Shown one piece after another: positions 3,941 through 20,514 of a stretch of 40,144 nucleotides of DNA. The stretch is from a virus, in IMG/VR virus record IMGVR_UViG_3300035181_000722, positions 1 to 40,144 of that record, one strand, 5' to 3'. Made by a program: the position numbers and the translations under genes. Position 1 is the stretch's first letter. Each line of letters opens with the position of its first letter. Below the pieces are notes generated by a model that was not told the DNA's origin, did not search any database, and worked only from the letters and a program-made list of their open reading frames with translations.

Positions 3941-3970
3941 CATGATGATATGTATTGATATGCAGTGATA
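3941..3970 (-). promoter_or_regulatory. Phased 10-bp repeat element, site A
   Basis: Three contiguous 10-bp units on the minus strand: TATCACTGCA, TATCAATACA, TATCATCATG. Same pattern as sites B, C, D, E and G. Located between the tail tube stop and the chaperone start, upstream of the 3891-3920 hairpin. A possible promoter (TATAAC at 3995-4000) lies just upstream. Function as operator or promoter is inferred. Confidence 0.6.
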
Positions 3971-3993
3971 TGGAACTGAAAGACGCTGTTAGG

Positions 3994-4368
3994 TTATACC
4001 CAATCAGCTATTTCGCCAACGAATGACAAGGATAACTTGGATTCTGAATTGACAGCGTGGTTCAAGTCATCAGTATCAAAGAAGCCTTTGGTTGTTAGAG
4101 TCACACCAGCGGCGAATAAAGTAAGCTCATGAACCTCTTGGTTCTTGATTGCTTTTCCAGCGTTGAACTCGAAACCAGCAGCGGGAACGGCTGATTCAAT
4201 TGAGATTTCAAGCATTGGGGAACCGGGAGAACGACCGGCAAAGCCTTTGGCTACGGTAAAGACGTTGTTCGCGCCTGACTTGCGAGCAACCTTTACGGAA
4301 GCTTCTTCAGATAATAAGGTTCCGTCTAAGTAAACCTCTACTTTGGTATATTGTTGTAAATTGGACAT
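3994..4368 (-). CDS. Tail tube protein
   Basis: 124 residues, beta-rich. Forms the inner tube of the contractile tail, through which DNA passes. Features: an N-terminal YTKVEVYLDGTLL strand, a central basic segment, and a Gly/Asp-rich C-terminus ending GFFDTDDLNHAVNSES...EIADWV. Length and position directly downstream of the sheath match Mu gpM-type tube proteins. The start (ATG 4368) has AAGGATCC just upstream. Very few cysteines and a compact size fit a virion protein made in high copy. Confidence 0.85.
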   Translation of the reverse strand: MSNLQQYTKVEVYLDGTLLSEEASVKVARKSGANNVFTVAKGFAGRSPGSPMLEISIESAVPAAGFEFNAGKAIKNQEVHELTLFAAGVTLTTKGFFDTDDLNHAVNSESKLSLSFVGEIADWV

Positions 4369-4383
4369 ATGTTTGGATCCTTA

Positions 4384-4401
4384 AGTTAAGCTAAGTGTTA
4401 G
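4384..4401 (-). repeat. Leader repeat shared by tube and sheath genes, copy 1
   Basis: The gap between sheath and tube carries GTTAAGCTAAGTGTTA (plus-strand reading), nearly identical to GTTAAGCTAAGGTGTTA at 5925-5941 just before the sheath gene. Each begins with the TAA stop of the preceding gene. The repeat may be a translation-enhancing or RNA-processing leader for the two most abundant tail proteins. Confidence 0.5.
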
Positions 4402-5912
4402 GCTATCTGGTCAACGACTGTTCCGATTTGGTCTAGAATGTCGGCAGTTTGTAATGGAATTCTTGAAGTTAATCTTGTGCGTGGGGTTGTTTCTCTTTGA
4501 ACAGCCATATTCGCGACAACAACGTCAGGATTTTGGACAAGATCATTTGCTGCGAATTCAAAGACAAGCTTGGATAAAAGAGCCTTTAAAACTCTTGGAG
4601 TAACAACGTTTGGTCCTGGCGTTTGCTGTCCACGTTGTGGATCGTCGCCAACCTGTTTACCTGCTAATTGAAGCGCAATCTTTGCCTGAGCCGCATCAGC
4701 GAATAAATCACAAATTGTTACCTTGTGACTGTCTCTGATTCTGTAGTCAGGAGTTGAAGTAGAGTTGATGTAGGAAGTAACGCGCTTGACGATGTATGTT
4801 GAACCGTTTGCGTTTGTTCCGATTGGGGTTACGCCTGAGTTAAGAGCCGCTAAAACCTGTACTCTTGTTGGAGGTGTAATGTTTCTTGGTGCGGTCAATC
4901 TCCAATATGGTCTTGAAGATGGATCGTTTCCGTATGAGTCAAAGTTCAATGTTGGAACCGTTGAAGCCTCTTCAAGAGAAACAGCAGCGGCGAATTGAGC
5001 GGCAACCTCGGCTGGCGTGACGTCTCCCGATGGAAGACAAGCCACCTCAACGCGAGGATTGTTGATGACAGCGGCAATGGCACCCGCTGCTGATAAAGAG
5101 GCTGTTGAGCCGCTTAGAACGCGCTGGCGAATTCCAGTGATTGGAGCCGCTTGGCTAGCAACCTGAGCTTGGACAAGACCAAGGTTTGTTGAATCGTCAC
5201 AAGCTGGAACAATGTAATAGAAACGTCTTGGAAGAATCGTTGCTAATGCGTTGGTGAATACGTCAGCAGCTCCACCGCTGGTTAATGCTGTTGATGCTGT
5301 TGGAGAAACTGTTACGCCTGAGGAAGTTGGAAGCATTTGACCAGAAATCTTAATGCTGTTTCCACGTAAACCTTTCTGCTTTGCCGTAAGAGTAATGACT
5401 CCCAATGAAGCCGTTGCGCTTACTGGTAAATCGGAACGCCCATTGATGTTGATAACAGCGTTTGCGGCTTGGGTAGTTACGTTGTCTCCTGTTACGATTG
5501 AGGTATCAACGAAATCGTCACCAACGAAGATTCTAAGAGTTGCGTTGGCTGTTGCTGTTCCTACAACCGTAATGGTTCCTGTTGCTTGTGCTCCTGCTGA
5601 TTCGGCAACAGCAATCGCGTAAACTGAGGTTGATGCGTTTACGGCTGTTACGCGCTTATACATTCTGTAAAGCTCTGAACCTACGCCGAATAAATCAACT
5701 GCGTCCTGTAAAGAGGTAAGTGCGGTTGCTGTATCTGGACCGTAAACAACGGTATCTGCTGTTGCTGAACCTGCTGATAACTTGTTACCCATCAAAAGAA
5801 TTGAATAGGTAGAACCTGAACCAGCGGCTTGTCCCGCTGCGAAATTGATTTGGATGTAAGATCCTGGAACTACATCGTTTGATGATAATCCTGTTAATGG
5901 TATTGATGGCAT
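4398..5912 (-). CDS. Contractile tail sheath protein
   Basis: 504 residues. Polymerises around the tube and contracts on infection. The N-terminus (MPSIPLTGLSSNDVVPGSYIQINF) is typical of Mu gpL-type sheaths. There is a long beta-rich insertion of Thr/Ala/Val around 100-200, and a conserved C-terminal segment with the DSHKVTICD...ALQLAGKQVGDDPQRGQQTPGP region. Followed directly by the tube gene and preceded by the DUF2635-like gene, as in Mu. This is the clearest evidence that the phage has a contractile tail. Confidence 0.95.
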   Translation of the reverse strand: MPSIPLTGLSSNDVVPGSYIQINFAAGQAAGSGSTYSILLMGNKLSAGSATADTVVYGPDTATALTSLQDAVDLFGVGSELYRMYKRVTAVNASTSVYAIAVAESAGAQATGTITVVGTATANATLRIFVGDDFVDTSIVTGDNVTTQAANAVININGRSDLPVSATASLGVITLTAKQKGLRGNSIKISGQMLPTSSGVTVSPTASTALTSGGAADVFTNALATILPRRFYYIVPACDDSTNLGLVQAQVASQAAPITGIRQRVLSGSTASLSAAGAIAAVINNPRVEVACLPSGDVTPAEVAAQFAAAVSLEEASTVPTLNFDSYGNDPSSRPYWRLTAPRNITPPTRVQVLAALNSGVTPIGTNANGSTYIVKRVTSYINSTSTPDYRIRDSHKVTICDLFADAAQAKIALQLAGKQVGDDPQRGQQTPGPNVVTPRVLKALLSKLVFEFAANDLVQNPDVVVANMAVQRETTPRTRLTSRIPLQTADILDQIGTVVDQIA

Positions 5913-5922
5913 TTAGATTCCT

Positions 5923-5941
5923 GTCGTTAAGCTAAGGTGTT
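5923..5941 (-). repeat. Leader repeat shared by tube and sheath genes, copy 2
   Basis: GTTAAGCTAAGGTGTTA (plus-strand reading, 5925-5941) in the short gap before the sheath gene. It matches 4386-4401 with a single extra G. See the copy in front of the tube gene. Confidence 0.5.
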
Positions 5942-6203
5942 ATTCGGATTTCAAGGCGTCATGGTCAACAACAAACGTTACTTGGCATTTGTCGGCTGTT
6001 TCTTTATCGGCTGGTATTAGGTCGCCATCTCTGACAGCGGCTCGGTATTCGGCTGTTTCTGCAACCTCAAATACATCGTCAACAACAACCCAGTTTGAAA
6101 CAGACTCATCAAATTTCTTACCTACGAATCTCTTGGGCATTGCTTGGAATGCCTCAAAAACTGGAACATGGGAGGTTGGTATCGCGCGGACTTTTAAACT
6201 CAT
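5940..6203 (-). CDS. DUF2635-like small tail protein (Mu gp38 position)
   Basis: 87 residues from ATG 6203. This start has AAGGAAA seven bases upstream; a longer frame would overlap the preceding gene. The C-terminal half (VPxx-like WVVVDDVFEVAETAEY, then RAAVRDGDLIPAD) resembles the DUF2635 signature, which ends '..YY.R.i.dGDL'. In Mu the equivalent gene sits immediately upstream of the sheath, as here. Its function is unknown; it is probably needed for tail assembly. Confidence 0.65.
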   Translation of the reverse strand: MSLKVRAIPTSHVPVFEAFQAMPKRFVGKKFDESVSNWVVVDDVFEVAETAEYRAAVRDGDLIPADKETADKCQVTFVVDHDALKSE

Positions 6204-6213
6204 ATTGATTTCC

Positions 6214-6930
6214 TTATTGGTTAGTCTTGAAATCCACGACATCAGCCAATGTTGATGCTTGTGAATCTGCCAAATCTTCGTTGATGTCTGTTCCTGTCAA
6301 GTTGTCGAATGCTCCCGATACAGGTAACTTGGTTTCAGTTACGTTGATATCCATTGCGACCGTTGGGAAATATAGGCTTGTCTTATCGTTTGGGATGTTT
6401 CCGAAAGCTCGGTTTGCTACGCTGATTGATGCGACGTTGCAGGTTTTCCAAACTTGTTCGCCTGAGTTGTAGTATCCATCAAATCCAATCTCTGTTCTGT
6501 TCTTCAATGTGTCTGAAACACCTTTGAGAATCGGTTGGAGACGTTCGTATTGGGCTGGCGATAAAGGAGGAAGAATCCAAAGAGCCTTCCATACCGATGA
6601 GCCTTGGTAATACTGAATTGAATGTTCTGTGAAATCCTCTGTTGTCCTGAATACGGATAAGATTGGAAATTTGAAGCTTTCTTCTAGGTTGAAGACGAAT
6701 GGATCGTATGGGAGTTTGGATCCAACCAATGAGCTTGAAATGGTTGTCAAGCCCGCTGTTGTTGCTTCTGCTGTCCATCTCTGTAACAAGTAGGTATCAA
6801 GAACAGATTTGAAGAATTCTAATGTTATGTATATTGGGAAATCAGCGTCTCTCAAAAGAGAGTTTGAGGAATACCCATCAAGCGGATAGATGGCTGAGCC
6901 GAATGCGAATGTCTGTGATTCTTTGCTCAT
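6214..6930 (-). CDS. Putative tail terminator / completion protein
   Basis: 238 residues from ATG 6930, which overlaps the preceding stop as ATGA; an extended frame to 7035 is less likely. No strong motif. It holds a mixed alpha/beta core with FPILSVFRTTEDFTEHS and a following LWILPPLSPAQYERLQPIL helix. Position between the HK97-gp10-like neck protein and the DUF2635/sheath genes corresponds to the Mu gp37 slot, where tail terminators cap the tube. The assignment rests mainly on synteny. Confidence 0.5.
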   Translation of the reverse strand: MSKESQTFAFGSAIYPLDGYSSNSLLRDADFPIYITLEFFKSVLDTYLLQRWTAEATTAGLTTISSSLVGSKLPYDPFVFNLEESFKFPILSVFRTTEDFTEHSIQYYQGSSVWKALWILPPLSPAQYERLQPILKGVSDTLKNRTEIGFDGYYNSGEQVWKTCNVASISVANRAFGNIPNDKTSLYFPTVAMDINVTETKLPVSGAFDNLTGTDINEDLADSQASTLADVVDFKTNQ

Positions 6931-7382
6931 GATATTACCGTTGCCACCGTGAAAAATAGGTTGTTGTAAAGGACGTTTGGAAGAACGGTTGCCATATTCG
7001 TAAAGAATGGTCTTGGTGCGGCGGCTCTTACCCACTTTCTGAAAAAGACTTGACCGTCAATTTCAAACCTGAGCGCTTTGGCTTTGGTTGGGTATATCTT
7101 GCCACCGCCCGGATCGTTTCCGTAATTTACGTAATTGCCATAAAAGATGCCTTGTGCGTTCTTCGCATTGGCTGAAACGATTCTTTCAAAGGCTGTTCCT
7201 GAAACTTGGAACTTGATTGAGCTTGTGAGCTTGCCTGTTCTGTTCTTGAAAAGTCCTGAACTCTTGGCGATTTGAACAGCTTGTTCACCAGCCTTGTTGA
7301 GTCCTTGTTGTGCGGCTCCTGGTAACTTGTCGGCAATCTCATTTAACTTTGCCAAAAATGCTGAGGAGTCCATTTCAATCAT
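6927..7382 (-). CDS. HK97 gp10-like neck / tail completion protein
   Basis: 151 residues. The N-terminal helix (SSAFLAKLNEIADKLPGAAQQGLNKAGEQAVQIAK) is followed by NRTGKLTSSIKFQV, which matches the 'tGrLrnSi' signature of the HK97-gp10 family. The later KAKALRFEIDGQVFFRKWVRAAAPRPFF matches that family's 'alrF...g..vf.k.V....prPF' ending. Members act at the head-tail joint. ATGA overlaps join it to both neighbours. Confidence 0.82.
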   Translation of the reverse strand: MIEMDSSAFLAKLNEIADKLPGAAQQGLNKAGEQAVQIAKSSGLFKNRTGKLTSSIKFQVSGTAFERIVSANAKNAQGIFYGNYVNYGNDPGGGKIYPTKAKALRFEIDGQVFFRKWVRAAAPRPFFTNMATVLPNVLYNNLFFTVATVIS

Positions 7383-7834
7383 GGCTGTTGAGCCGTTCTT
7401 CTAATGACTATTTTGTAAGTCAAGTTGGAATGAACGTCTTGGTCAACCTTGACGAAAAAGGATCCTGTTGGCTCAAAGCCATTACCAGTTACCTTGAAGT
7501 AGATTTCAGCGGGGTTGACGCCATCGTCTGAGGAGAAATCTGAGATATTGAATCCGCCTCCTGAGAAACTTGGAGTGAGCGTCAAGCGATAATCGCCTTC
7601 CGCGAACTTCCCAGCCGAGGCGAGAACCTCGCGAGAGGAGAGGCGTTCAAGCCTTGGGTTCTGTCCCCCAACCGTGAGAGCGGTTGACGTTGTGGTTGAG
7701 GTTCCCAACCCAACGCGTTCGCCTGTCCAAGTTCTCTTGATGACGCTGACAGCGAATGGTCTGAGATTCAGTTGACCGGGAATGCCTCTAACTGAGTCAA
7801 TCACAGCCTTTAAGCTTGCTGGTAAATCTGCCAT
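7379..7834 (-). CDS. Putative head-tail connector (stopper-like) protein
   Basis: 151 residues, beta-rich. Begins with a short helix (LPASLKAVIDSVRGIPGQL), then repeated strands with a long Thr/Ser stretch (VGLGTSTTTSTALTVGG). Position, size and beta-barrel-like pattern fit a stopper or joining protein between the adaptor and the tail terminator. No family-specific motif is visible to me. Confidence 0.45.
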   Translation of the reverse strand: MADLPASLKAVIDSVRGIPGQLNLRPFAVSVIKRTWTGERVGLGTSTTTSTALTVGGQNPRLERLSSREVLASAGKFAEGDYRLTLTPSFSGGGFNISDFSSDDGVNPAEIYFKVTGNGFEPTGSFFVKVDQDVHSNLTYKIVIRRTAQQP

Positions 7835-7835
7835 T

Positions 7836-8687: not shown

Positions 8688-9728
8688 TTATGCTTCGTTG
8701 ATATCTGTGATAACGCCGCAAGTGTTAGGACGTTTGACAGCTAACTGTAATGTTGCTTGAAGCATGAACTTAAAGCTGTCACCAGTCTTTGCTAATGCGC
8801 TGGTCTTAACGAATGATCCGAATGGAGTTACCATCTTGCCGTTGGTGGATACCAATGAGCTTGATGCGGCGAATTCTTGACCAATGAAGACCTGAGGAAG
8901 ATAGGTTAATTCAATGTAATCTGTATTAAGGAAATACATTGTTCCGGTTGGACAATCCTTGTCGCGAATGATGTTGATTCCTTTGTAAGAAAGGTTATCG
9001 GTTGTTGGGTCAAACTTGACGATTGGTTGATTTGCGAATGTGCTGATTGAGCTAAATAGAGCCTTGTATTTGTTGAATACACCAGGAGAGGTAACGATTA
9101 TGTTAGGACTTTGACCGGATGCGATAAACAAGTTTGCGTCCATTAAATCCATAAGAGCAAGAGTTAAGGATCTTGGAGTACCACCGTTAGCTAACTTGGT
9201 TGATGCCCATAATGGATGTGCAGCCTTTGAGATACCGGCGTAAGTTGTGGTTGCGTCTAATGCGCCTCCACCTAATCCGACGATGTTTGCAGTTGAGCCA
9301 CCGCCTCCGTTTGCGCCGGTTCCGGTGTAAAGGTCAACGTTGATAACTGAAGATAACTGAGCGGCTGAACCAAGGAATCTTTGTCCAAGAATATCCATTA
9401 AAGCTGATGCGGAACCAACTGAGGTTGATGCGGCTTGGACTTCCATTTCTGAAATCCAAAAAGGAGCGCGGTACTGTGCCCAAGAAAGGACAGCAGGTAA
9501 TGGAACGTCAGCGCCGTAATCGCCTGAAACTACGTCGGCACCTTCAACAACAGCCTTTGCGGATGCGTATCCGTCGGCAATGACGGACCAAGCAACGTTC
9601 TTTCCCATTCCAGCCTTCATTTGAAGGATGGACGCTAAACGAGCGGTCTTGTTGTAAGCGGTAATTAATTCTGATTCGTAAACCTGAGACAATGCGGAAG
9701 TTATATTTGAAAGTGCGTCAATAGCCAT
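8688..9728 (-). CDS. Major capsid protein (HK97 fold)
   Basis: 346 residues. Long N-terminal helix (DALSNITSALSQVYESELI), then an AWSVIADGYASAKAVVEGADV...LSWAQYRAPFWISEMEV pattern. The C-terminal half carries the P-domain-like IIVTSPGVFNKYKALFSSIST and FGSFVKTSALAKTGDSFKFML. Preceded by a scaffold gene and followed by neck genes, as expected. The leader CTTACCTTAAGGATACC before the start resembles that of the tube gene, and probably supports high expression. Confidence 0.88.
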   Translation of the reverse strand: MAIDALSNITSALSQVYESELITAYNKTARLASILQMKAGMGKNVAWSVIADGYASAKAVVEGADVVSGDYGADVPLPAVLSWAQYRAPFWISEMEVQAASTSVGSASALMDILGQRFLGSAAQLSSVINVDLYTGTGANGGGGSTANIVGLGGGALDATTTYAGISKAAHPLWASTKLANGGTPRSLTLALMDLMDANLFIASGQSPNIIVTSPGVFNKYKALFSSISTFANQPIVKFDPTTDNLSYKGINIIRDKDCPTGTMYFLNTDYIELTYLPQVFIGQEFAASSSLVSTNGKMVTPFGSFVKTSALAKTGDSFKFMLQATLQLAVKRPNTCGVITDINEA

Positions 9729-9752: not shown

Positions 9753-10373
9753 TTATCTGTTGAAAAGAGCCTTTGCTAAGTCTTCTGCAAGTTCTTCCTT
9801 GCTGACTTTGCTAGGTTGTTTGAGTGAGGTATGAGAACTCTTATCGCCTGAGCCGCTTGCGACCTTTGCAGGTCTGAAAAGCTTTGCGTCTTCTGATGTT
9901 GAAAGCCATTGCTTCAAGCCATCTTTTAAGTTGAACGTTTCGCCTTCATGTTTGAAAACGATTGTTTCCCCATCGTCATCGTATCCAACTGAGTTGGAGA
10001 CTTTGGTTAGGTGACCAACCGCCATCTTCTGAGTTGTGCGGTTTGTGATTCCAGCCTCAGAAAGAGATTCGTATAAAGACTGTTCAAGCTTGGTTGACTT
10101 GTTGCGGTTTCTCTCCTCATCACGTTCGCGCTTTATCTTTTCTAGTTCGGCGCGCATTTCCTCCAAGCCTGATTTTGGTTTGGATTCTTGTTCTGTTGGA
10201 GCGGAAACCTGTTGAGTTTGTGAGAAAAGCTTGTCAAGCTTTTGTTCAAACGTCTTGAATCTCGCGGTAATTGCTCTGTTTAATGTCTCTGCTGTCACGT
10301 ATTGAGGCTGTGACTCTGTTTCGCCTTGCACTTCTTCAGTTGGTGAAGCGTTACCATTTGGCTTATTGTCCAT
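9753..10373 (-). CDS. Capsid scaffold protein
   Basis: 206 residues, strongly acidic and basic. It has a predicted coiled coil at about 70-110 (SGLEEMRAELEKIKRERDEERNRNKSTKLEQ) and a charged C-terminal helix (SKEELAEDLAKALFNR). Scaffolds of this kind line the procapsid and bind the capsid protein through a C-terminal helix. It lies immediately upstream of the major capsid gene. No protease domain is seen here. The start is preceded by AAAAGGAA. Confidence 0.82.
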   Translation of the reverse strand: MDNKPNGNASPTEEVQGETESQPQYVTAETLNRAITARFKTFEQKLDKLFSQTQQVSAPTEQESKPKSGLEEMRAELEKIKRERDEERNRNKSTKLEQSLYESLSEAGITNRTTQKMAVGHLTKVSNSVGYDDDGETIVFKHEGETFNLKDGLKQWLSTSEDAKLFRPAKVASGSGDKSSHTSLKQPSKVSKEELAEDLAKALFNR

Positions 10374-10415: not shown

Positions 10416-10445
10416 CGTACTGATATGCAAAGATATGCAGTGATA
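10416..10445 (-). promoter_or_regulatory. Phased 10-bp repeat element, site B
   Basis: Minus-strand units TATCACTGCA, TATCTTTGCA, TATCAGTACG in direct contact. They lie in the 80-base gap between the MuF-like gene and the scaffold gene, just downstream of a promoter-like TTGACA (10474-10479). This places the scaffold-capsid unit under separate control. Confidence 0.62.
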
Positions 10446-10451: not shown

Positions 10452-10479
10452 GTTATTTTGAAACAGTTACAATTGTCAA
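10452..10479 (-). promoter_or_regulatory. Sigma70-like promoter for scaffold and capsid genes
   Basis: Minus strand TTGACA (10474-10479), 16-base spacer, AATAAC (10452-10457). The -35 is perfect and the -10 is weak. It lies inside the end of the MuF-like gene and points at the scaffold gene, with site B immediately downstream. Confidence 0.5.
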
Positions 10480-11130
10480 AACGCATCGGCAATGTGGGTG
10501 CAATGGAGGCGATTGAGAGAACGATCCGCTAATTGGAACCGTCTTCCCGTGCATCGCTCGGCACCTTGAACAAGTCACTGAATCCAAGGTTGCATCCCAA
10601 CGGATGAAATAGTCTTGGTTCTTGTCTGTGATATTCTTTTTAATTGCGTCTCTTACGTCTTTCTGAAATTGCCCATTGTGGGCGGTGAAGACAGCTTGTG
10701 AAACTGCGTTCTTGATTGCCTGCTTTGACTCAGACGCAATCTCCTTTGAATCAACTTGCTTGTTGTCCAATAGTCTTTGCGCCATTGCGCGAGAGACATA
10801 AGCAGCAAGCGCCAAGCCAATTGAAGAAGATAAAAGAAACCATTTCTTCTTTTCCTTGGGTGTGTCGGTCAACTCAACGTTTACCAAATCTTCCGAAACT
10901 GACTCATTCGCAAATGAGCGAGCCTCATCAATTATCTTAAATATTGCTTGCTGTAGCTTCTCAGGAATCTTCTTTGAGAACGCTAGACTTGTTGAGTTGG
11001 TTGCTACAATGTAGGTTACAAGATCGGTAAGTTCGCTGATTTGGTCATTCGTTAGCTTGTCAAGCTTGCGGACTCTCTCAGCGATGCGGGCGCGATCCAG
11101 CTTGCTGAGGCTGGTTGTTACCTTCCTCAC
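10453..11130 (-). CDS. MuF-like head morphogenesis (minor head) protein
   Basis: 225 residues. Start is GTG at 11130, overlapping the portal stop as GTGA. The C-terminal signature of the Mu gpF/SPP1 gp7 family is clear: FIRWDATLDSVTCSRCRAMHGK, followed by PPLHPHCRCVLTIV. The Cys and His residues form a probable zinc site. The N-terminus is helical and the protein is short for the family. Minor head proteins of this type enter the capsid and sit near the portal. Directly follows the portal gene, as is usual. Confidence 0.88.
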   Translation of the reverse strand: MRKVTTSLSKLDRARIAERVRKLDKLTNDQISELTDLVTYIVATNSTSLAFSKKIPEKLQQAIFKIIDEARSFANESVSEDLVNVELTDTPKEKKKWFLLSSSIGLALAAYVSRAMAQRLLDNKQVDSKEIASESKQAIKNAVSQAVFTAHNGQFQKDVRDAIKKNITDKNQDYFIRWDATLDSVTCSRCRAMHGKTVPISGSFSQSPPLHPHCRCVLTIVTVSK

Positions 11131-12755
11131 GCAACCTCAGACCTTGCCTTGGAAGGCTTCCCGGTTGGGGCGGGGGGCTTGCCTTGGTCGGAATCGTCAT
11201 CGCTTCCAGGCTCCTCCGTTTCGTCCGCATCGACATCAGGATCCGTCTCCTCATGCCCCATCGATTCCACCGCTTCCTCAATCTCTTTGCGGATAACGCT
11301 GGTTGTTTCTGGTGAAACGTTGCCAAGCAACGCAAGAGCAATTTTGGACTGATAAAGCTTGTTGAATGTTTCTGAATGGATTCCAAGGTTCTGAACCGCC
11401 ATGGCTTCCTTTAGCAATTGGTCGCGATCCGCAAACTCATAATTGGTCAATCCGTGAACTTGCCAAATGATGTCATCGCCTCTTGCTTCCGCAATGATGC
11501 GATAAACAGCCTTTGCCGCCTCTCTTACGATGTTTCCATAAGCCGTAAGTATCTTGTTGGTCGCCTCTTGATCCGCCATCTTGGAAAGACCCGAACGCCC
11601 AAGAGCTTGGGAGTTGTTGGCAATCGAATTCGCCATTTGGGAAACAACTTGCATCATTTGCTCAACAAGTTCGTTTATTTGCTCGTTGACCAATGTGTAA
11701 GCCGCTCCTGTTGGCTCTAGATATCCAAGCTCATCGTCTTTACCAACAACAACATAACCTTTCTGTAACAGGTCTGATTGACGTAATTGGTTGCCGCGGT
11801 TTGGATTGTTTTGAGCCTCGGAAGGTATATCGCCCCCAAATGAACCCATCTCAGAGCCGAGCTTGGCAAACGGAACGCAAAACAATGACTTGGCTTGCGA
11901 AGCAATCAAAGCTGAACGCCTGTTGAAATGCTCTTGAACCATCGGACCAATCTTGTTGCCGATCCAAAGTCCATCGTTTACGCAAACTTCAACAATCGGA
12001 ATGCGCTTGAACGTGGTAGTTCCTTCGCTGGTCAACGATACCTCATCATCATCAGCCGGTTCCTTGTCTAGCTTAATTGGCTGAGTTTCAAATATCTTCC
12101 AATTCACATTGCCCGATTCGTCGCGCTCCCAAACCTTGAATTGTATGACTTTGGTGTCTCTCTTGGACTCCAAGCCTTGACGCTTGGTAATCTCTCTCTT
12201 GATGACGAATAGGACGAAAGATCCATATTCATCCTTTTCAAAGTCAATGACGCATTCATTTGGAAGGATGGTAATGAATGGACTGTTGGAAACGTCTTCC
12301 ATGCCAATCGCATTGATTGGCGGATTGTCAACGCTTGGAAAGTCAACCTGAATATAAGTTGCTTTCTGAAGCATTGCGTTTGTGATTGACTGTTGAAGAA
12401 CGGTTGTGAATGCATTTCCGCCAAGGTCTGAGTTTGCCGCAAACTGTTGGTAAAATGGATCGGTTGTTGTATCGCCCGGTGTTGTTGGATCCTCGGCATC
12501 GCCAGCGGGTAAAACTGCCAAGTCTTGTGAGAAGAGGTTGGATGCGAAATAGTCAATGATTTGGGATAGATAATTGATATAGCTTGATGTTTTGATTCTG
12601 TCTTCGTAGCGTTGTGCGTGCTCTGAAAGGTCTTTGGTCAAGTATTTCTTTGAGTTCTTCAATACTTGAAAGCCTCCAACGTAAAAGTCATCAAGCTTCT
12701 TTACGCGGTCCAAGTCAAAATCAAGGCTCTTTTGGTTTAATATTCCGTATTGCAT
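11127..12755 (-). CDS. Portal protein
   Basis: 542 residues. The N-terminus has YEDRIKTSSYINYLSQIIDYFASNLFS, and the middle FNRRSALIASQAKSLFCVPF with a long stem helix (EQINELVEQMMQVVSQMANS). The C-terminus is a highly acidic tail (DPDVDADETEEPGSDDDSD). Forms the dodecameric DNA channel at one capsid vertex. Between large terminase and MuF-like genes, the universal location. The base composition of the acidic tail is more GC-rich than its surroundings. Confidence 0.88.
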   Translation of the reverse strand: MQYGILNQKSLDFDLDRVKKLDDFYVGGFQVLKNSKKYLTKDLSEHAQRYEDRIKTSSYINYLSQIIDYFASNLFSQDLAVLPAGDAEDPTTPGDTTTDPFYQQFAANSDLGGNAFTTVLQQSITNAMLQKATYIQVDFPSVDNPPINAIGMEDVSNSPFITILPNECVIDFEKDEYGSFVLFVIKREITKRQGLESKRDTKVIQFKVWERDESGNVNWKIFETQPIKLDKEPADDDEVSLTSEGTTTFKRIPIVEVCVNDGLWIGNKIGPMVQEHFNRRSALIASQAKSLFCVPFAKLGSEMGSFGGDIPSEAQNNPNRGNQLRQSDLLQKGYVVVGKDDELGYLEPTGAAYTLVNEQINELVEQMMQVVSQMANSIANNSQALGRSGLSKMADQEATNKILTAYGNIVREAAKAVYRIIAEARGDDIIWQVHGLTNYEFADRDQLLKEAMAVQNLGIHSETFNKLYQSKIALALLGNVSPETTSVIRKEIEEAVESMGHEETDPDVDADETEEPGSDDDSDQGKPPAPTGKPSKARSEVA

Positions 12756-12773: not shown

Positions 12774-14105
12774 TTAACCGATCGGTAAGTGTGTGAAATT
12801 TCGTTGAGGTGTTTGCGTTCCGAACACAAGATCATTAATTGCGAAAACCATCGCATCCATTCGATCGTCATGTTGGCTTGACTGAAGCTCAGGAGAGTAA
12901 GCGCACGATTGGTCTTCTAAGAACTTGAAGCTTCCCGCCAAGTGTGCGGCGCCTCTCTCAAAGAGAGCGGAAACAGGTTCAGCGCGCTTGCTCTTTCCCG
13001 TTGCCGAGCGCGTTACCTTGACGTGAATAAATGGATTGATGGTCTTGATTGTGTTCGCAACCATATCGCCACCATAATTGTTCTCAGCAACAACATGAGT
13101 TGGTTTCCATGTGTTCCAAAGTTGATTGATGACGTTTGCCCATTCGTTTGGTGAATACTTGCCCGAGGCATCAGCCAAAACATAAGCATGGTTATCTAAA
13201 CCAAGACCGGCAACCACAATTCCAGTTTCATCAGAGTTCTTTCCCGTCGAACCAGCGGGGTCAACCGCAACCACAATCTGTTTCATTAAAGGTGGATTGA
13301 GGATCCTTGTTCGCTCAAAGACACCAGCCGAGAACAATGCGCCGGGAACGTCCATAAGCAATTCGCCATAAAGCTCTTGGCGACCAATGCGCGTTCCTTC
13401 ATACATTTCCTTCAATGCGGTTAGCGTTGACTTGGCTAAATTGGCTTCATTGTCGAATGTGGAACCGAACACAACTCTTGTTTTCTTGTCGGGGTTGTAT
13501 GAGTCCTGAATGATGGTTTGAAGGATCTTGTTTGGCTTGGGAGTTGTTGCGATGACGATTCTAGGATTCTTGCCGATACGCGCAATCATGTTTGCTTGCA
13601 TCCAAACGTCTTCCGCATAAATCATGGATGCAAATTCATCAATTACGACAAGAGACATATTTGCGCCTCTTAATCGGTCCGGTTCGTCTGCTGAATAGCA
13701 AATGGCTCTTGCGCCCGTATGAAACTCAATCGTTTGGGTTGAATGAACGAATCTTGGTCTGTGTTTCTTTGGAAATACGTTTAGGATTCCTGAGTCTCCC
13801 ATGACAATCGTATCTCTGATGTCCTTTGAGGTTGGAGCAACAATCGCAATGTTTTTCTCTCCACCGTATACGCATTGCTTGATGTATTCACTTATGGTTC
13901 TGGTCTTGCCAAATCCTCTCCCACACTGAAGCAATAAAACTCTGAAATCGTCATCGGTTATGAGTTGCTTTGGTCTTGCGAAATAATCCCAACAATACGA
14001 AAGGTCTTCAATCACCCGAGGCGGGAACTTCGTTATTGCTTCTTTCTGAAGTTCGATTGGCAACAGCTTTAGCTTGCTGACAATCTCATGTATTGGATGA
14101 ATCAA
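12774..14105 (-). CDS. terL: Terminase large subunit
   Basis: 443 residues. ATPase: Walker A CGRGFGKT at 61-68 and Walker B LVVIDE at 152-157. RNase H-like nuclease: VVAVDPAGSTGK with Asp282, VVAENNYGG with Glu341, and DDRMDAMVFAI with Asp residues near 413-417. This is the motor that pumps and cuts DNA during packaging. All key residues are present, so it should be active. Coupled to the small subunit by an ATGA overlap. The closed assembly agrees with headful packaging but does not prove it. Confidence 0.97.
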   Translation of the reverse strand: MIHPIHEIVSKLKLLPIELQKEAITKFPPRVIEDLSYCWDYFARPKQLITDDDFRVLLLQCGRGFGKTRTISEYIKQCVYGGEKNIAIVAPTSKDIRDTIVMGDSGILNVFPKKHRPRFVHSTQTIEFHTGARAICYSADEPDRLRGANMSLVVIDEFASMIYAEDVWMQANMIARIGKNPRIVIATTPKPNKILQTIIQDSYNPDKKTRVVFGSTFDNEANLAKSTLTALKEMYEGTRIGRQELYGELLMDVPGALFSAGVFERTRILNPPLMKQIVVAVDPAGSTGKNSDETGIVVAGLGLDNHAYVLADASGKYSPNEWANVINQLWNTWKPTHVVAENNYGGDMVANTIKTINPFIHVKVTRSATGKSKRAEPVSALFERGAAHLAGSFKFLEDQSCAYSPELQSSQHDDRMDAMVFAINDLVFGTQTPQRNFTHLPIG

Positions 14106-15554: not shown

Positions 15555-15801
15555 TTGAAACCTTTGCTGGCTTTACATACGTTTCATTGCGAATGATCTG
15601 ATAAACCGTGCTTTGGTGCGCGCCAAAAAGCTTTGCAAGGAAATAACCAGAATAACCCATCTTGTTTAGAGTTCTGATTGCCTCGGCTTGTTTGATGGTT
15701 AAAACGCGTTTCTTTGGACCGCCAACGGTAACCTTGCTTGCTCTTGCGGTCTTGATTGTGGTCTTGCTAACTAATTGCGTGACTTTGTTATGTTTGCTCA
15801 T
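15547..15801 (-). CDS. Small helix-turn-helix protein
   Basis: 84 residues. Basic N-terminus, then LTIKQAEAIRTLNKMGYSGYFLAKLFGAHQSTVYQIIRNETY, a resolvase-type HTH (HTH_7-like) with recognition helix HQSTVYQIIRN. Coupled to both neighbours by overlaps. A DNA-binding regulator, or a DNA-recognition subunit for packaging, is plausible. Confidence 0.6.
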   Translation of the reverse strand: MSKHNKVTQLVSKTTIKTARASKVTVGGPKKRVLTIKQAEAIRTLNKMGYSGYFLAKLFGAHQSTVYQIIRNETYVKPAKVSNA

Positions 15802-16061
15802 GCTGTTCCTTTTCTCCTATCGGATACATGAGCAAAGAGAGCGCCAAACACCATACAGAATATCTGGTCTTCTAATTCGCAATCATATGTGAAATCAACT
15901 TGGACTTTCTCTCTTAGGTCGCCAAGATTCTTTCTGATGTAGATGCGGAACCATAAGTCAGGAATGAAGCTTACCAATTCCTCATACGTATCCAAAAGTC
16001 CTTCAACCTCCAATACCATGATTTCGATCGATTCCGAATCTTCCTTTATCTCTTTGCTCAT
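15798..16061 (-). CDS. Small acidic protein, first gene of the late operon
   Basis: 87 residues. Acidic N-terminus (SKEIKEDSESIEIMVLEVEGLL) and aromatic middle (FIPDLWFRIYIRKNL). No recognised domain. The start codon ATG 16061 forms the end of phased-repeat site C, and no Shine-Dalgarno is visible, so translation may begin on a very short leader. ATGA overlap with the next gene. Confidence 0.55.
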   Translation of the reverse strand: MSKEIKEDSESIEIMVLEVEGLLDTYEELVSFIPDLWFRIYIRKNLGDLREKVQVDFTYDCELEDQIFCMVFGALFAHVSDRRKGTA

Positions 16062-16108
16062 AATGATATGCGTTAATATGCATAGTATATAACTGATAGG
16101 CGATGATA
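16059..16108 (-). promoter_or_regulatory. Phased 10-bp repeat element, site C (five units)
   Basis: Minus-strand units TATCATCGCC, TATCAGTTAT, ATACTATGCA, TATTAACGCA, TATCATTATG, all exactly 10 bp apart. This is the longest array in the genome, directly before the first late-operon gene and including its start codon. A TATACT box lies inside the third unit. Likely master control of the late operon. Confidence 0.65.
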
Positions 16109-16140
16109 TTTCTGAATTTTAATCGCCCCGAATCAGAAAT
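16108..16140. promoter_or_regulatory. Dyad-symmetric possible operator
   Basis: ATTTCTGA (16108-16115) and TCAGAAAT (16133-16140) form perfect 8-bp inverted arms with a 17-base spacer. It sits between the divergent operons, next to site C. It has no T-tract and does not look like a terminator, so a dimeric repressor site is the likely reading. Confidence 0.4.
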
Positions 16141-16355
16141 GATAACCGAATCATAATTAGTATAGGTTTATAGTTACTGTATGGTTAGTCTTACTTGGTT
16201 ATCCTCTGTATGGTCATTGACTCTTATATGGTCTGATTTCTATCTTATACCTAGTGTCCAGAGATTTCAATGATTTCTCGATGTTTATTAAGATTCCTTT
16301 ATCTTTAGAGGTACGATGTAATTAAAAATAATTAGCTCTTGAATTATTTTCGATA

Positions 16356-16385
16356 GACATACGCATAACAGGATATATATTACAA
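16356..16385 (+). promoter_or_regulatory. Phased 10-bp repeat element, site H (degenerate)
   Basis: Plus-strand units GACATACGCA, TAACAGGATA, TATATTACAA line up with the units of site D (TATATATGCA, TACTCTGATA, TATAGGTATG). It lies just before the polymerase gene, whose ribosome site AGAGGA follows. More degenerate than the other copies. Confidence 0.4.
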
Positions 16386-16396: not shown

Positions 16397-17821
16397 ATGA
16401 GCGGAGAAATTGTGAAGAATACAACATCAAAGAAATTCAGAGAATATTGCATAAACAAATTTCCAGGTTTGGCTTGCAAGGAATCGTTTCGCAAGTTCTT
16501 TCAATACCTATGCTTTGGAACCATGATCTGCAAAGACACAGGAAGACTTGTCATAACTCACAACTTGCTTGCGGACTTCAACAAGAGCCGAGATGACAAA
16601 GCTTTCATATCTGGTGAATTCTTATCCGAATTCAAAGCGGTTGTCGTGAACAAGCTTGAATGGACGAATCCAATTCCTTTCATTGACTATAGATGGATCG
16701 GGCAATCAAGAACCATTAAGCGCACCGGATTTGATGCTGAACTTGAAGCAATGATAACCGAGGAGATTACAACCGAGGTAAAGGATCCTGTCTTCTTCGT
16801 TTCGGGAGAGGCTTACTATCCAAAGACAAGACGCGAGTACAACGAAAAAGCAGAGAAAGAAATCAAGTCAGAACAATCAACATACGTCTTGAATGAAACT
16901 CAGCAAAAGATATTCAATTACCTTGAAACCGTCCCGTTCGATGCTTTCACCAGAAAGCTAAACAATAACCAAGCTGAGATTCAGAGCGCAATTGACGAAA
17001 TCACGGACCCAATCAGCGAACACAAGGCAACCGAAAAGAAATTGATTCAATATCGTATCATCAACTCCATTCGTGAGAACCCATCGGTTCACTATCGCCC
17101 AAGTGTGCGCGAGAGAACTTCAAGGCTATTTCACTCCTCGGATTGCGTTGTTGCGCTAAAGAAGACCGTTCGTAAGGCTTTCTGTAAAGGTTGGACGGAT
17201 ATCGATCTAAAGTCTTCCCAATTTGCAATATTGGCTGAAATTCTTGACGCAAGCTTGGCAAAGGCGTTCCTCGACTCCAATCAAGACCTTTGGCTTTACC
17301 TAAACAAAACCATATTCAACAAGCATGAAAAGCCAAGCGCGGTTGAGAAAACAGCGTTCAAAGCCGTTATCTACGGCTTGTCATTCGGAAGAAGCAAGAA
17401 AGAGATAACCAAGTCTCTTAAAGAACTAGGCTTAGATGCCAAGCTCTTTTACTCAAATCCAATGATTGCCGAGCTATTCAGCAAACGTGAGGAATGGTTA
17501 GATAGCATCGAACATTACGGATACGTTACCGATGCTTGGGGCAACAAGATTGAGGTTTCAAAGGATCGTTGGGCGGGAGCCGTAGCAGCCGCTAAAATAC
17601 AATCAATTGAAATGGAAATCATTTCCGCTGTTTTCGATGTTGCTAGCCTTCCCGAATATGCAAACAAGTGCAAGATCATGATCTTTCAACATGACGGTTG
17701 CACAATCAGCTTCACAAATAAGGAAACCAAGCCCGTAATTCTAAGGAGAATGCAGGAAGCGCTTGACGAAAAAGCAAAGAAATTCAACGTAATAGCCAGA
17801 CTTGAAAATGAGGATTTATGA
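16397..17821 (+). CDS. Short family-A (PolA-like) DNA polymerase without exonuclease domain
   Basis: 474 residues. The C-terminal half carries family-A polymerase motifs in order. TSRLF (241-245) stands in the place of the usual TGRL. Motif A is TDIDLKSSQFAILAEIL (267-283, catalytic Asp268 or Asp270). Motif B is EKTAFKAVIYGLSFGRSKKEI (K318/K322, Y326-G327). GYVTDAWGNK (375-384) matches the 'GYv.T..GRR' element, and motif C is QHDG (His432, Asp433). The second motif C acidic residue of the usual HDE is Gly. No 3'-5' or 5'-3' exonuclease is present, and the N-terminal 230 residues are unassigned. The enzyme is about half the size of Pol I, so it is a minimal phage replicase or primase-polymerase-like enzyme. 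First gene of the rightward operon. Confidence 0.8.
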   Translation: MSGEIVKNTTSKKFREYCINKFPGLACKESFRKFFQYLCFGTMICKDTGRLVITHNLLADFNKSRDDKAFISGEFLSEFKAVVVNKLEWTNPIPFIDYRWIGQSRTIKRTGFDAELEAMITEEITTEVKDPVFFVSGEAYYPKTRREYNEKAEKEIKSEQSTYVLNETQQKIFNYLETVPFDAFTRKLNNNQAEIQSAIDEITDPISEHKATEKKLIQYRIINSIRENPSVHYRPSVRERTSRLFHSSDCVVALKKTVRKAFCKGWTDIDLKSSQFAILAEILDASLAKAFLDSNQDLWLYLNKTIFNKHEKPSAVEKTAFKAVIYGLSFGRSKKEITKSLKELGLDAKLFYSNPMIAELFSKREEWLDSIEHYGYVTDAWGNKIEVSKDRWAGAVAAAKIQSIEMEIISAVFDVASLPEYANKCKIMIFQHDGCTISFTNKETKPVILRRMQEALDEKAKKFNVIARLENEDL

Positions 17822-18090
17822 AAACAAAAGCATTGACAATAGAAGAGATTGAGTTGGAATTGGAAAAGCAAGGACATTTGGTAAGAGACGAGAATGGAGA
17901 GTTGATAACACCAAGACCGCCAAAGCCAAAGCATTGCCAATGGTGCGGCGGTTCATGCGGATCCAATAGTCTTCGTTGGGTTGCTCATTACACCTTTCAC
18001 AACGCTCCAATATTCACGGGTTGGTTTTCGGACCAATGCGAGGAACTATCAGACTTCGCGTTTCAAGCATACGACAATGACGATTCTTGA
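17818..18090 (+). CDS. Small possible zinc-binding protein
   Basis: 90 residues. ATGA overlap with the polymerase, so it is translationally coupled to it. Central KHCQWCGGSCGS has a CxxC pair plus a third Cys, with a fourth Cys in FSDQCEELSDF. This looks like a single small zinc knuckle. May be an accessory factor of the polymerase; no family recognised. Confidence 0.55.
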   Translation: MKTKALTIEEIELELEKQGHLVRDENGELITPRPPKPKHCQWCGGSCGSNSLRWVAHYTFHNAPIFTGWFSDQCEELSDFAFQAYDNDDS

Positions 18091-18093
18091 GAA

Positions 18094-18123
18094 TATATAT
18101 GCATACTCTGATATATAGGTATG
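18094..18123 (+). promoter_or_regulatory. Phased 10-bp repeat element, site D
   Basis: Plus-strand units TATATATGCA, TACTCTGATA, TATAGGTATG. Aligns unit by unit with site E (TATCTATGCA, TATCATGATA, TATCAGTATG). Ends 13 bases before the start of the ribbon-helix-helix gene, so that protein could control its own synthesis here. Confidence 0.6.
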
Positions 18124-18136
18124 AAAGGAAATCATA

Positions 18137-18310
18137 ATGGAAAAGAAGATTAGAGAGAACGTTCTAAAGAAGGTTCGAGTATGCATTACGGTTGATCCTG
18201 AGCTTCATGCGAGGATCGTAAAGATGGATGCCGAGAACCAATCCGGGTTCAGCTTCCACGTTGGAAAAGCTTTGAAGGCTTATTTGGAAACATTGGGAGC
18301 AAATAAATGA
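18137..18310 (+). CDS. Ribbon-helix-helix (CopG/Arc-like) regulator
   Basis: 57 residues. The N-terminal strand KKVRVCITVDPELHARIVKM is followed by two helices (PELHARIVKMDAE and SFHVGKALKAYLETL), the pattern of CopG/Arc/MetJ proteins. Such proteins bind tandem direct repeats as side-by-side dimers using the beta ribbon. The ribosome site AAAGGAA (18124-18130) sits between site D and the start. Neighbouring genes overlap it (ATGA at the end). It is the natural candidate to bind the phased 10-bp repeats, by analogy with MetJ boxes; that link is inference. Confidence 0.7.
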   Translation: MEKKIRENVLKKVRVCITVDPELHARIVKMDAENQSGFSFHVGKALKAYLETLGANK

Positions 18311-18402
18311 ACCGAGCCAAGATATCGGAGATATTGCACGCAATTACATTGACAACGCTTGGAGCCTGTTGCGGCGCTGTATTGGTATGGTTCTTAATAT
18401 AA
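18307..18402 (+). CDS. 31-residue single-pass membrane peptide
   Basis: Starts by ATGA overlap with the ribbon-helix-helix gene. MNRAKISEILHAITLTTL then GACCGAVLVWFLI: a short basic end and a hydrophobic segment long enough for one membrane span (about 12-31). Function unknown. The tight coupling is the main reason to believe it is translated. Confidence 0.45.
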   Translation: MNRAKISEILHAITLTTLGACCGAVLVWFLI

Positions 18403-18425
18403 AGAGCATTCTACGATGTAGAATT

Positions 18426-18441
18426 CAATATCCATGCCAAA
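18426..18441 (+). repeat. 16-bp repeat CAATATCCATGCCAAA, copy 1
   Basis: Identical to 18668-18683, and a diverged copy lies at 19225-19240. Each copy follows the stop of a small early gene. The first precedes the next gene's ribosome site and the other two precede terminator hairpins. Its role is unknown. Confidence 0.6.
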
Positions 18442-18460
18442 TGGAGAAAAGGAAATGAAT

Positions 18461-18661
18461 ATGAATATGAAATATACTAGAAATGATGGAAGCGAATTGA
18501 TGTTTATTAAGAACAATGATGGTATGTTTATTGTGGTAACATGGAAGGAAGGAAGGCAATTGTTTCGCAACGTTGTCAAGGCTAGCGATTCTAAAGCGGT
18601 TGATGCGCTGATTGATAGCTTGATTGCCGATGGAAAGAAACAGATTGCCGATAACGGATAA
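18461..18661 (+). CDS. Small unrecognised early protein
   Basis: 66 residues if started at ATG 18461, which lies nine bases after AAGGA. Other in-frame ATGs occur at 18434, 18455 and 18467. MNMKYTRNDGSELMFIKNNDG, a beta-like part, then a C-terminal helix (SKAVDALIDSLIADGKKQIAD). Followed by a strong terminator (18719-18745). No family recognised. Confidence 0.55.
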   Translation: MNMKYTRNDGSELMFIKNNDGMFIVVTWKEGRQLFRNVVKASDSKAVDALIDSLIADGKKQIADNG

Positions 18662-18667
18662 ATAAAA

Positions 18668-18683
18668 CAATATCCATGCCAAA
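18668..18683 (+). repeat. 16-bp repeat CAATATCCATGCCAAA, copy 2
   Basis: Exact match to 18426-18441. Lies just after the stop of the 18461 gene and before the terminator. Confidence 0.6.
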
Positions 18684-18718
18684 CAATGAATGAGATTTGA
18701 TTCTCCAAGAGTCGAATC

Positions 18719-18745
18719 AGCCGCCCGATATGGAGCGGCTTTTTT
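18719..18745 (+). terminator. Rho-independent terminator of the early operon
   Basis: AGCCGC (18719-18724), ten-base loop, GCGGCT (18735-18740), then TTTTT. A clear intrinsic terminator closing the polymerase operon. Confidence 0.85.
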
Positions 18746-18764
18746 CTTTTAATTGGCATGCGTC

Positions 18765-18792
18765 TTGACAGCTAAAGATAAATAATTATACT
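18765..18792 (+). promoter_or_regulatory. Strong sigma70 promoter
   Basis: TTGACA (18765-18770), 16-base spacer, TATACT (18787-18792). It follows the early-operon terminator. Site E lies about 21 bases downstream of the -10 box, inside the transcribed leader, where a bound protein would block transcription. Confidence 0.75.
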
Positions 18793-18812
18793 ACATGTAC
18801 GATTTCATGACA

Positions 18813-18842
18813 TATCTATGCATATCATGATATATCAGTATG
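18813..18842 (+). promoter_or_regulatory. Phased 10-bp repeat element, site E
   Basis: Plus-strand units TATCTATGCA, TATCATGATA, TATCAGTATG. Best match to the group consensus and the clearest example of a site just downstream of a good promoter. Located between the promoter and the 18877 gene. Confidence 0.68.
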
Positions 18843-18876
18843 CGAGCATGACAAACAATGCTTGCGAGGAGATAAA

Positions 18877-19218
18877 ATGAGCAAATACTATACATTATCA
18901 ATTGAAACAAATGGCATAAATCTTGATTCTTTGAATTCGTGTGATTTCGATACTGAATGCGATACTTGGACCGCTTACAACAATGAGGATTGGTCTAATT
19001 ACGCTCCAATGTCAGTCAACTTTGATGCTTTGGAAGATGAGACATTCATAATTCGTGCCAATACAAAGGCTAGGAATATCGCTTGCAATGAGGTTCTTAG
19101 CTATGCCGCCCGTAACGGGGTAACAAGTACAACAGCCATTCTAAGAGAAGGTGTGAGCGGTAAGAAGCTTGGAGCCTATGTCAAGGAAGGCAATGCTTGG
19201 AGCTTTTACAATGCATAA
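18877..19218 (+). CDS. Unrecognised early protein under the strong promoter
   Basis: 113 residues from ATG 18877, with GAGGAG seven bases upstream; a TTG start at 18862 is less likely. Acidic and aromatic N-terminal half (SKYYTLSIETNG...CDTWTAYNNEDWSNYAP), then NTKARNIACNEVLSYAARNG and LREGVSGKKLGAYVKEG. It is the only gene between its own promoter with site E and the 19248 terminator. No domain recognised. Small acidic early proteins of this kind are often host-takeover or anti-defence proteins, but nothing shows that here. Confidence 0.6.
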   Translation: MSKYYTLSIETNGINLDSLNSCDFDTECDTWTAYNNEDWSNYAPMSVNFDALEDETFIIRANTKARNIACNEVLSYAARNGVTSTTAILREGVSGKKLGAYVKEGNAWSFYNA

Positions 19219-19224
19219 TTAAAA

Positions 19225-19240
19225 CAAATATCATGCCAGA
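19225..19240 (+). repeat. Diverged third copy of the 16-bp repeat
   Basis: CAAATATCATGCCAGA, matching CAATATCCATGCCAAA apart from small changes. Again right after a small gene's stop and before a terminator hairpin. Confidence 0.45.
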
Positions 19241-19247
19241 ATGAACG

Positions 19248-19272
19248 AAGCCACCAATCAAGGTGGCTTTTG
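19248..19272 (+). terminator. Rho-independent terminator after the 18877 gene
   Basis: AAGCCACC (19248-19255), loop AATCAA, GGTGGCTT (19262-19269), running into a short T-tract. Works for the rightward direction. Confidence 0.75.
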
Positions 19273-19290
19273 TCGTTTCATAGCTACCAA

Positions 19291-19605
19291 CAATGAGAGG
19301 AGCCGAATTCAGGTCAACGGGAAGGCGTCTCCTACGTTGTTTCGGGCGGTCCAAGGATGGTTGAGACCTGAGAGGAGCAAGACGCGTCAAATCGCCTCCC
19401 ATGAGCTTCTGAGGCTAATTCGCCCGGATTGCCTGCTAACCTGTTCAGGCTCGGAAGGTTCGCTTTGCCTCTCAGAGCTTGGCTTGGTTGACGGGAGCAA
19501 CCAAGAGAGGCGGGAAAGAGCTAGCGGGGCGGGGGGTTGCAATGGCTTGGGGGGCGGTTGTGCTCCTCCGATTGAAACCAAGCTCGGCTTGCTGGTCTGA
19601 ATTGA
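19291..19605. ncRNA. GC-rich, highly structured region without a credible gene: candidate noncoding RNA
   Basis: This part of the gap is clearly richer in G and C than its surroundings and offers no open frame that looks like protein. Pairings I can see are AATTCAG (19306-19312) with CTGAATT (19597-19603); GAGGAGC (19372-19378) with GCTCCTC (19562-19568); GCCTCT (19467-19472) with AGAGGC (19506-19511), enclosing CTTGGTTG (19483-19490) with CAACCAAG (19498-19505); CGGGCG (19343-19348) with CGCCCG (19421-19426); and GCCTG with CAGGC (19431-19450). TGAGAGGAGC occurs twice. The strand is undecided: rightward transcription would have to pass the 19248 terminator, while site F lies at the right edge and points leftward. 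Not a recognised RNA family. Confidence 0.35.
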
Positions 19606-19925
19606 CAGTTTCTCTATACCGAATTTGAGTTTTACTAGATGTTTTTGGCATTAGTCTTGATTGAGCTTTACCTATTGACTGATTTGTGAATGTCGGGAAA
19701 AAGAATCATGTAGTATAAAGAATGCAATATAGCGATATGTAATGATAAGTATTGAAACAGGTGTGAACAAATGGATACATATGGTCATTTCCAGGCTGAA
19801 CGGAACGAAAAAAGAATCAGGAAGCCTCACTCAAGAGACACCTTCTCATAACTTGACAACAGCAAACACCGATAAAACAAGCACAATGACAATCAGCCAA
19901 GCAATTCAGAATCAACCAAAAACAG
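19606..19925. other. Intergenic stretch without a supported gene
   Basis: About 320 bases between the structured region and the terminator of the HNH-AP2 gene. AT-rich, with site F (19718-19747) and a leftward promoter-like TTGTTC, 17-base spacer, TATCAT (end near 19742). A rightward 83-codon frame (19742-19993) has no ribosome site and runs through the HNH terminator, so I do not call it. Confidence 0.5.
19718..19747 (-). promoter_or_regulatory. Phased 10-bp repeat element, site F (degenerate)
   Basis: Minus-strand units TATCATTACA, TATCGCTATA, TTGCATTCTT. Two good units and one poor one. It faces the structured region rather than any protein gene. Confidence 0.4.
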
Positions 19926-19949
19926 AAAAAGCCACCTCAAAGGATGGCT
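19926..19949 (-). terminator. Terminator of the HNH-AP2 gene
   Basis: Minus strand AGCCATCC (19942-19949), loop TTTGA, GGTGGCT (19930-19936) with one bulged T, followed by TTTTT. It ends the free-standing endonuclease transcript. Confidence 0.65.
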
Positions 19950-19976
19950 CAATCAGTCCGATTATAATTCCAATGT

Positions 19977-20486
19977 TTATGGAATCTTGTTGATGTTGGC
20001 AAATTCACCAAACAATTCAATAGCTTTCTCATTGTAAGCGTATGCGGCTTCAACCTCAGAGTCATAGCGTCCAACGTGAACCATCTTGTTGTCTTTATGG
20101 ACTCTGACTCTCCAAGATTGGCTTGACTTATCCCAAGCAACACCTTTGAACTTTGAGCTTGTATCGCTGGTTGTTTTCCTATTTCCCGCCTTGATTTGGG
20201 AGTTGGTTGGAACTCTTAGGTTTTCAATTCTGTTGTCAACTCTATTCTTGTTTATGTGTTGGACATTCTTTGCCCAATATCCGTAATGCATGAACCAAGC
20301 CAATCTATGACCATATACCTTTACATTTACTCCATTTATTACGGGGTTGATTGTAATGTATTCATGGCATGTATATTGAATTTGTTTCTTGGTGTAGTTA
20401 CTTGTAATGATTCCTGTGTTTGGGTCATACTTGTAATTCGATTTGATATACGTTGATATTTCGGCGGTGGTTGGTTTGGTTGTCAT
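19977..20486 (-). CDS. Free-standing HNH endonuclease with AP2 domain (paralogue)
   Basis: 169 residues. HNH core at about 58-95: HRLAWFMHYGYWAKNVQHINKNRVDNRIENLRV. AP2 domain at about 112-168 (SSKFKGVAWDKSSQSWRVRVH...VGRYDSEVEAAYAYNEKAIELFGEFA). In the first, the Asp of the usual 'IDH' is Gln (VQH), a change at the residue before the catalytic His of the second motif. Unlike the 2653-3150 copy it has its own control element (site G) and terminator, so it is an independent unit. A homing endonuclease or a simple selfish gene. Confidence 0.9.
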   Translation of the reverse strand: MTTKPTTAEISTYIKSNYKYDPNTGIITSNYTKKQIQYTCHEYITINPVINGVNVKVYGHRLAWFMHYGYWAKNVQHINKNRVDNRIENLRVPTNSQIKAGNRKTTSDTSSKFKGVAWDKSSQSWRVRVHKDNKMVHVGRYDSEVEAAYAYNEKAIELFGEFANINKIP

Positions 20487-20514
20487 ACATAGTATATATC
20501 AGTATGCCAATGTA
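20485..20514 (-). promoter_or_regulatory. Phased 10-bp repeat element, site G
   Basis: Minus-strand units TACATTGGCA, TACTGATATA, TACTATGTAT. The last unit runs into the ATG of the HNH-AP2 gene and no Shine-Dalgarno is visible, as at site C. Contains a TATACT box. Confidence 0.55.

Follow-up and report, generated by a model that had tools for sequence, protein, structure and literature searches.

Ribbon-helix-helix (RHH) repressors that act on tandem operators include MetJ with its boxes, Arc, omega, and ParR, the last of which illustrates the binding of RHH proteins to direct-repeat arrays, at parC. To our knowledge, few phages have a single family of sites that reaches early, head, and tail genes together. 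Apl, a protein of phage 186, recognizes direct repeats spaced by one turn and requires three operators side by side (PMC7498355). RdfS covers about 10 bp of DNA per molecule (PMC11963761), and L5-type repressors use oriented sites in promoters and in short intergenic gaps (PMC9283540). The phage genome analyzed here contained at least six arrays of 10-bp units spaced exactly one helix turn apart.

The phage genome

The window, which is the entire IMG/VR virus entry (40,144 bp, classed as linear), was 89% coding and 11% non-coding according to the gene list of this analysis. Judged by its gene content, the phage is temperate and contractile-tailed. The early genes, including the integrase gene (22893-24209, +), lay on the plus strand, and the late genes lay on the minus strand and included the terminase (12774-14105, -), portal (11127-12755, -), head morphogenesis (10453-11130, -), major capsid (8688-9728, -), and tail sheath (4398-5912, -) genes, as well as baseplate genes between 34 and 40 kb (-). 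ORF 3994-4368 is the probable tail-tube gene by its position, adjoining the sheath gene. No CI-type repressor was recognizable in the phage.

An early 474-aa protein (16397-17821, +) gave no Pfam call at full length, and a trimmed copy of it scored 24.6 bits against PF00476 (E 1.5e-5; cut-off 34.3). The protein is predicted to be DNA polymerase A-like, which is unusual for a 40-kb temperate phage; tblastn returned no relatives of it, and an AlphaFold model made with no alignment was of low confidence and was set aside. Two HNH endonuclease genes, at 2653-3150 (-) and 19977-20486 (-), belonged to one family (phrog_99), with an AP2 domain in the second, and both are likely mobile endonuclease genes. 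Across the 40,144 bp, the word AGCTTGG occurred 41 times versus 5.5 expected, and CCAAGC and AACCAAG were also in excess. In addition, a 15-bp exact direct repeat, AATATCCATGCCAAA, at 18427-18441 and 18669-18683 (+), flanked a small ORF (18434/18455-18661).

Searches of INPHARED and IMG/VR with the DNA and with selected proteins found no close relative of the phage; for the proteins (the terminase, the capsid protein, the tail sheath, the 57-aa protein discussed below, the product of the array E gene, and the 474-aa protein), nothing close was returned. The capsid matched viral contigs at 34% over 67 residues at most and otherwise at about 33% or less, and the best terminase match was 39-40%.

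Arrays of phased 10-bp units

Arrays A to F are real. When a 30-bp matrix was built from four of arrays A to E and used to search about 80,000 positions for the fifth, each of the five ranked between 3 and 7, the intervening entries being known arrays or shifted copies of them; array D, at rank 7, was the weakest of these core arrays. In a second test with the plain consensus (TATCAnTGCA)x3 and a threshold of at least 20/27 matches, 8 overlapping places passed, versus 0.04 per dinucleotide shuffle, and all 8 were within A, B, E, and F. C and D were weaker under the plain consensus, and their case rests on the leave-one-out matrix. The unit consensus was TATCAnTRYA, with a last unit that was TATCAnTATG or near it in A to E. 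Over 21 units, T1, A2, T3, and C4 carried 1.2 to 1.6 bits each, A5, T7, R8, Y9, and A10 carried less, and position 6 carried nothing.

On the minus strand, array A (3941-3970; units TATCACTGCA, TATCAATACA, and TATCATCATG) was 23 bp past the stop of ORF 3994-4368, and the gene that it faced, ORF 3272-3868, was next ahead, separated from the array by a terminator-like hairpin (3891-3917, -). Array B (10416-10445, -; units TATCACTGCA, TATCTTTGCA, and TATCAGTACG) was in the gap from the head morphogenesis gene to ORF 9753-10373, upstream of the major capsid gene. Array C (16059-16108, -) had five units, the final one ending in the ATG of ORF 15798-16061, which is the first gene of the late operon. 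On the plus strand, array D (18094-18123; units TATATATGCA, TACTCTGATA, and TATAGGTATG) began 3 bp after a stop codon, ran into a Shine-Dalgarno sequence, and had the gene of the RHH-like protein directly after it. Array E (18803-18842, +) had the four units TTTCATGACA, TATCTATGCA, TATCATGATA, and TATCAGTATG, with a hairpin 3' of it and a terminator-like hairpin (by eye) at 18720-18745, before its promoter. Array F (19728-19757, -; units TTTCAATACT, TATCATTACA, and TATCGCTATA) had no downstream gene on its own strand and was antisense to the nearest ORF. A GC-rich stretch of about 400 bp within 19219-19700, without a convincing gene, lay between a terminator and array F; it had no match in an Rfam search and could be a non-coding RNA.

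The initial annotation had placed A, B, C (with five units), and D at these same coordinates. It had given E as 18813-18842, an array which was recovered and which a fourth unit extends to 18803, and F as 19718-19747, a real array listed one unit off. Two further proposed copies were not sustained: that at 20485-20514 (G) was out of register, with a single good unit (TATCAGTATG at 20497-20506) and a two-unit site, TATCAACGTATATCA, beside it at 20444-20458 (-), and that at 16356-16385 (H) was unremarkable in the consensus and site scans. Weak extra matches at 22192 (+) and 18761 (-), both in gaps, were left out of the array count.

All six arrays were in the 11% of the window that is non-coding, apart from 3 bp that C shares with the start codon of ORF 15798-16061, and all strong matches to the matrix within this genome fell in gaps, as had been predicted. 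They were confined to 3.9-19.8 kb, a span of about 16 kb, and a scan of the same genome found no array in the tail/baseplate half at 26-40 kb; the description of the family as genome-wide was therefore overstated. Five of the six, A to E, pointed to the next gene and F pointed away, in agreement with the claim that all but F face a downstream gene. Likewise, C does run into a start codon, but the lack of a Shine-Dalgarno sequence there, to which attention had been drawn, is nothing special, because many genes of this phage have a weak one or none.

Three scans of IMG/VR with the array pattern returned satellites or single two-unit matches and no genome with several arrays. The matches in contigs L064 (TGCATATCRC), L230 (TATCATTACA), L224, and L229 were rejected as satellites rather than dispersed arrays; that in L064, a 292-kb viral contig, is a 10-bp satellite at 1587-1651 whose likeness to the array motif was judged a coincidence. 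No arrays of the same design with another motif were found in the relatives' sequences examined.

Promoter-like sequences were found next to arrays B, C, and E. As noted initially, array E is just downstream of a strong promoter: the sigma-70-like sequence TTGACA-16-TATACT (18765-18792, +), the best in the genome, has a -10 box that ends 10 bp before the array. The -10 box of TTATCA-18-TAAAAT (16116-16145, -) ends 7 bp before array C, and that of TTGACA-16-AATAAC (10452-10479, -) ends 6 bp before array B. Compared with random positions, the best upstream promoters had p values of 0.001 (E), 0.011 (C), and 0.039 (B), although A+T-rich gaps may inflate such promoter-like scores. The upstream promoter of A was weak (p 0.13), and the sigma-70-like promoter scan found no convincing one upstream of D or F. 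Since the -10 boxes end 6 to 10 bp before B, C, and E, these arrays would begin at about +1. Array D and, to some degree, array A were in tight gaps behind a stop codon.

Candidate function and alternative explanations

The one-turn spacing, the runs of three to five units, the promoter-proximal position, and the fixed polarity fit a cooperative DNA-binding protein that contacts one face of the DNA, and the chance that the arrays are operators for one phage-encoded protein of this kind is put at about even. We observed the arrays themselves, their spacing, non-coding position, and orientation, and the promoter-like sequences near them, and we infer the binding of a protein, the sign of its effect, and its identity. 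Each 10-bp unit would be occupied by one protomer or dimer; with one helix turn from unit to unit, the protein molecules would line up along a single face of the DNA and could bind three to five units cooperatively. An array that starts at about +1, as at B, C, and E, would block initiation or promoter escape, and one in a short intercistronic gap, as at D and A, would serve as an oriented road-block for RNA polymerase. Acting together, the arrays would silence the first late operon, the capsid unit, the tail unit, and two early units as a group in the prophage, or set their timing during lytic growth. A family of control elements linking early, capsid, and tail units, as proposed in the initial annotation, is still the best reading, less its members G and H.

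The most likely binder of the arrays is a 57-aa RHH-like protein, the product of the gene (18137-18310, +) immediately following array D; in that case the protein would be autoregulatory. Its sequence had an RHH layout by eye, and a home-built profile of 27 RHH_1 domains scored it at 6.8 bits, higher than all 2000 of its self-shuffles and second among 436 frames of the window. Furthermore, its best match in genome G004, although weak (E 0.23), was the only RHH_1 locus there. Pfam (RHH_1 included), NCBIfam, and PHROGs gave no RHH call for the protein, and a single-sequence AlphaFold model of it was all-helical, of low confidence (pLDDT 63), and not usable. A more specific proposal, at present doubtful, is that this one protein serves as a genome-wide silencer. 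It would polymerize on the oriented arrays with their helical phasing, both within operons and at the start sites of promoters, and prevent transcription of early and late genes from starting as well as from continuing. Such a system would have evolved independently as a counterpart of the L5 stoperators, with another protein fold and another design of the sites. If the arrays do block elongation as well as initiation, they would represent a second answer to the stoperator problem, structurally unrelated to the first. The arrays also give a handle on regulation in a phage without close relatives or a recognizable CI-type repressor, and the sites are short and portable, so that the claim is easily tested in a reporter strain.

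A different binder, though an unlikely one, would be the 67-aa Xis/RDF-like HTH_17 protein encoded upstream of the integrase gene (22600-22803, +), a winged-helix protein of the Xis/RDF type that would double as a transcriptional regulator in the manner of Apl of 186 and Cox of P2. Besides HTH_17, it matched the excisionase model TIGR01764 at 26.3 bits, just below the cut-off of 28.8, and phrog_66/575. The architecture of the arrays agrees with the known RDF mode of at least three direct repeats one turn apart with about 10 bp per monomer (PMC7498355, PMC11963761), and a weak two-unit match was found at 22862-22876, immediately before the integrase start. However, the attP region (24210-24896) had no TATCA array, its best score being unremarkable, and it bore instead a distinct phased 10-bp repeat, TGGCGAACG, where RDF/Int arm sites would be expected. 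This repeat occurred at 24324, 24386, and 24396, the last two copies exactly 10 bp apart (three copies versus 0.26 expected). The segment 24324-24481 (+), in which the repeats are followed by the 3' half of a tRNA-Arg(CCT) gene (about 24430-24481, by eye), is the probable attP; a search for the host with its tRNA segment found no match among 385 genomes of the bacterial class of G004.

Somewhat harder to accept is that an activator, or an unusual polymerase or sigma factor, recognizes the arrays, which would then make up a class of promoters specific to the phage and serving middle or late genes. The arrays do face early, capsid, and tail units, their polarity is fixed with a conserved last unit, TATCAnTATG, and neither D nor A has a good sigma-70 promoter. 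Array E, by contrast, is downstream of the strongest sigma-70-like promoter of the genome, where an activator site would not be expected. As for a polymerase, the match to PF00476 suggests a DNA polymerase A-like enzyme for the early 474-aa protein, and the model for phage-type RNA polymerases, PF00940, had no match here, nor in any control genome of that search.

It is improbable that the arrays function at the RNA level, where as parts of 5' leaders or intercistronic regions they would serve translation control, processing, or antitermination. Array polarity follows the gene, D runs into a Shine-Dalgarno sequence and C into a start codon, and hairpins follow A (terminator-like) and E, all of which would suit such elements. 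Nevertheless, the leader RNAs folded no better than shuffles (z-scores of 0.23 for D, 0.16 for B, and 1.02 for C), an exact helix-turn period has no evident meaning in RNA, F is antisense to its nearest ORF, and an Rfam search gave no match. Finally, the arrays are very improbable as centromere-like partition sites for a ParR-type RHH protein, comparable to direct-repeat plasmid centromeres, for despite the ParR/parC precedent, the integrase and the probable tRNA-derived attP point to chromosomal integration, no partition ATPase was recognized in the phage, and the arrays are six small gene-adjacent sites rather than one centromere.

Comparison with known systems

The arrays constitute a well-defined family of phased putative operators whose function and binder we infer. 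Their initial description as undescribed holds for the motif, as far as searched, but not for the architecture, which is known from Xis, Cox, and Apl, nor for dispersed oriented operators, which are known from L5-type phages. In RHH repressors such as MetJ, Arc, omega, and ParR, the resemblance is in the candidate binder, which is small and RHH-like, and in adjacent sites that would permit cooperative binding; the unit length and motif differ, and the candidate was missed by the Pfam RHH models.

With Apl of coliphage 186 and the Xis/Cox-type RDFs, the arrays share one-turn direct repeats, three to seven in a row, located at promoters, and a small phage-encoded protein, represented here by the winged-helix RDF-like gene at 22600-22803. 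The differences are that the six arrays here extend across 16 kb, next to early, capsid, and tail units, and that the motif is absent from the probable attP. With the stoperators of mycobacteriophage L5 and cluster A, the arrays have in common a scattering over the genome, at promoters and in short gaps between genes. Stoperators are mostly oriented with transcription; 5 of the 6 arrays here are as well and F is not, a sample too small for proof. The L5 stoperators are single asymmetric 13-mers with a different motif, bound at over twenty sites by a two-domain monomer, the immunity repressor, which terminates elongation there, whereas this phage has six arrays of phased 10-bp units and no recognized homologous repressor. 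The arrays are best read by analogy, and not as members of either group, as Apl/RDF-like in the architecture of their sites and L5-stoperator-like in their distribution and apparent orientation.
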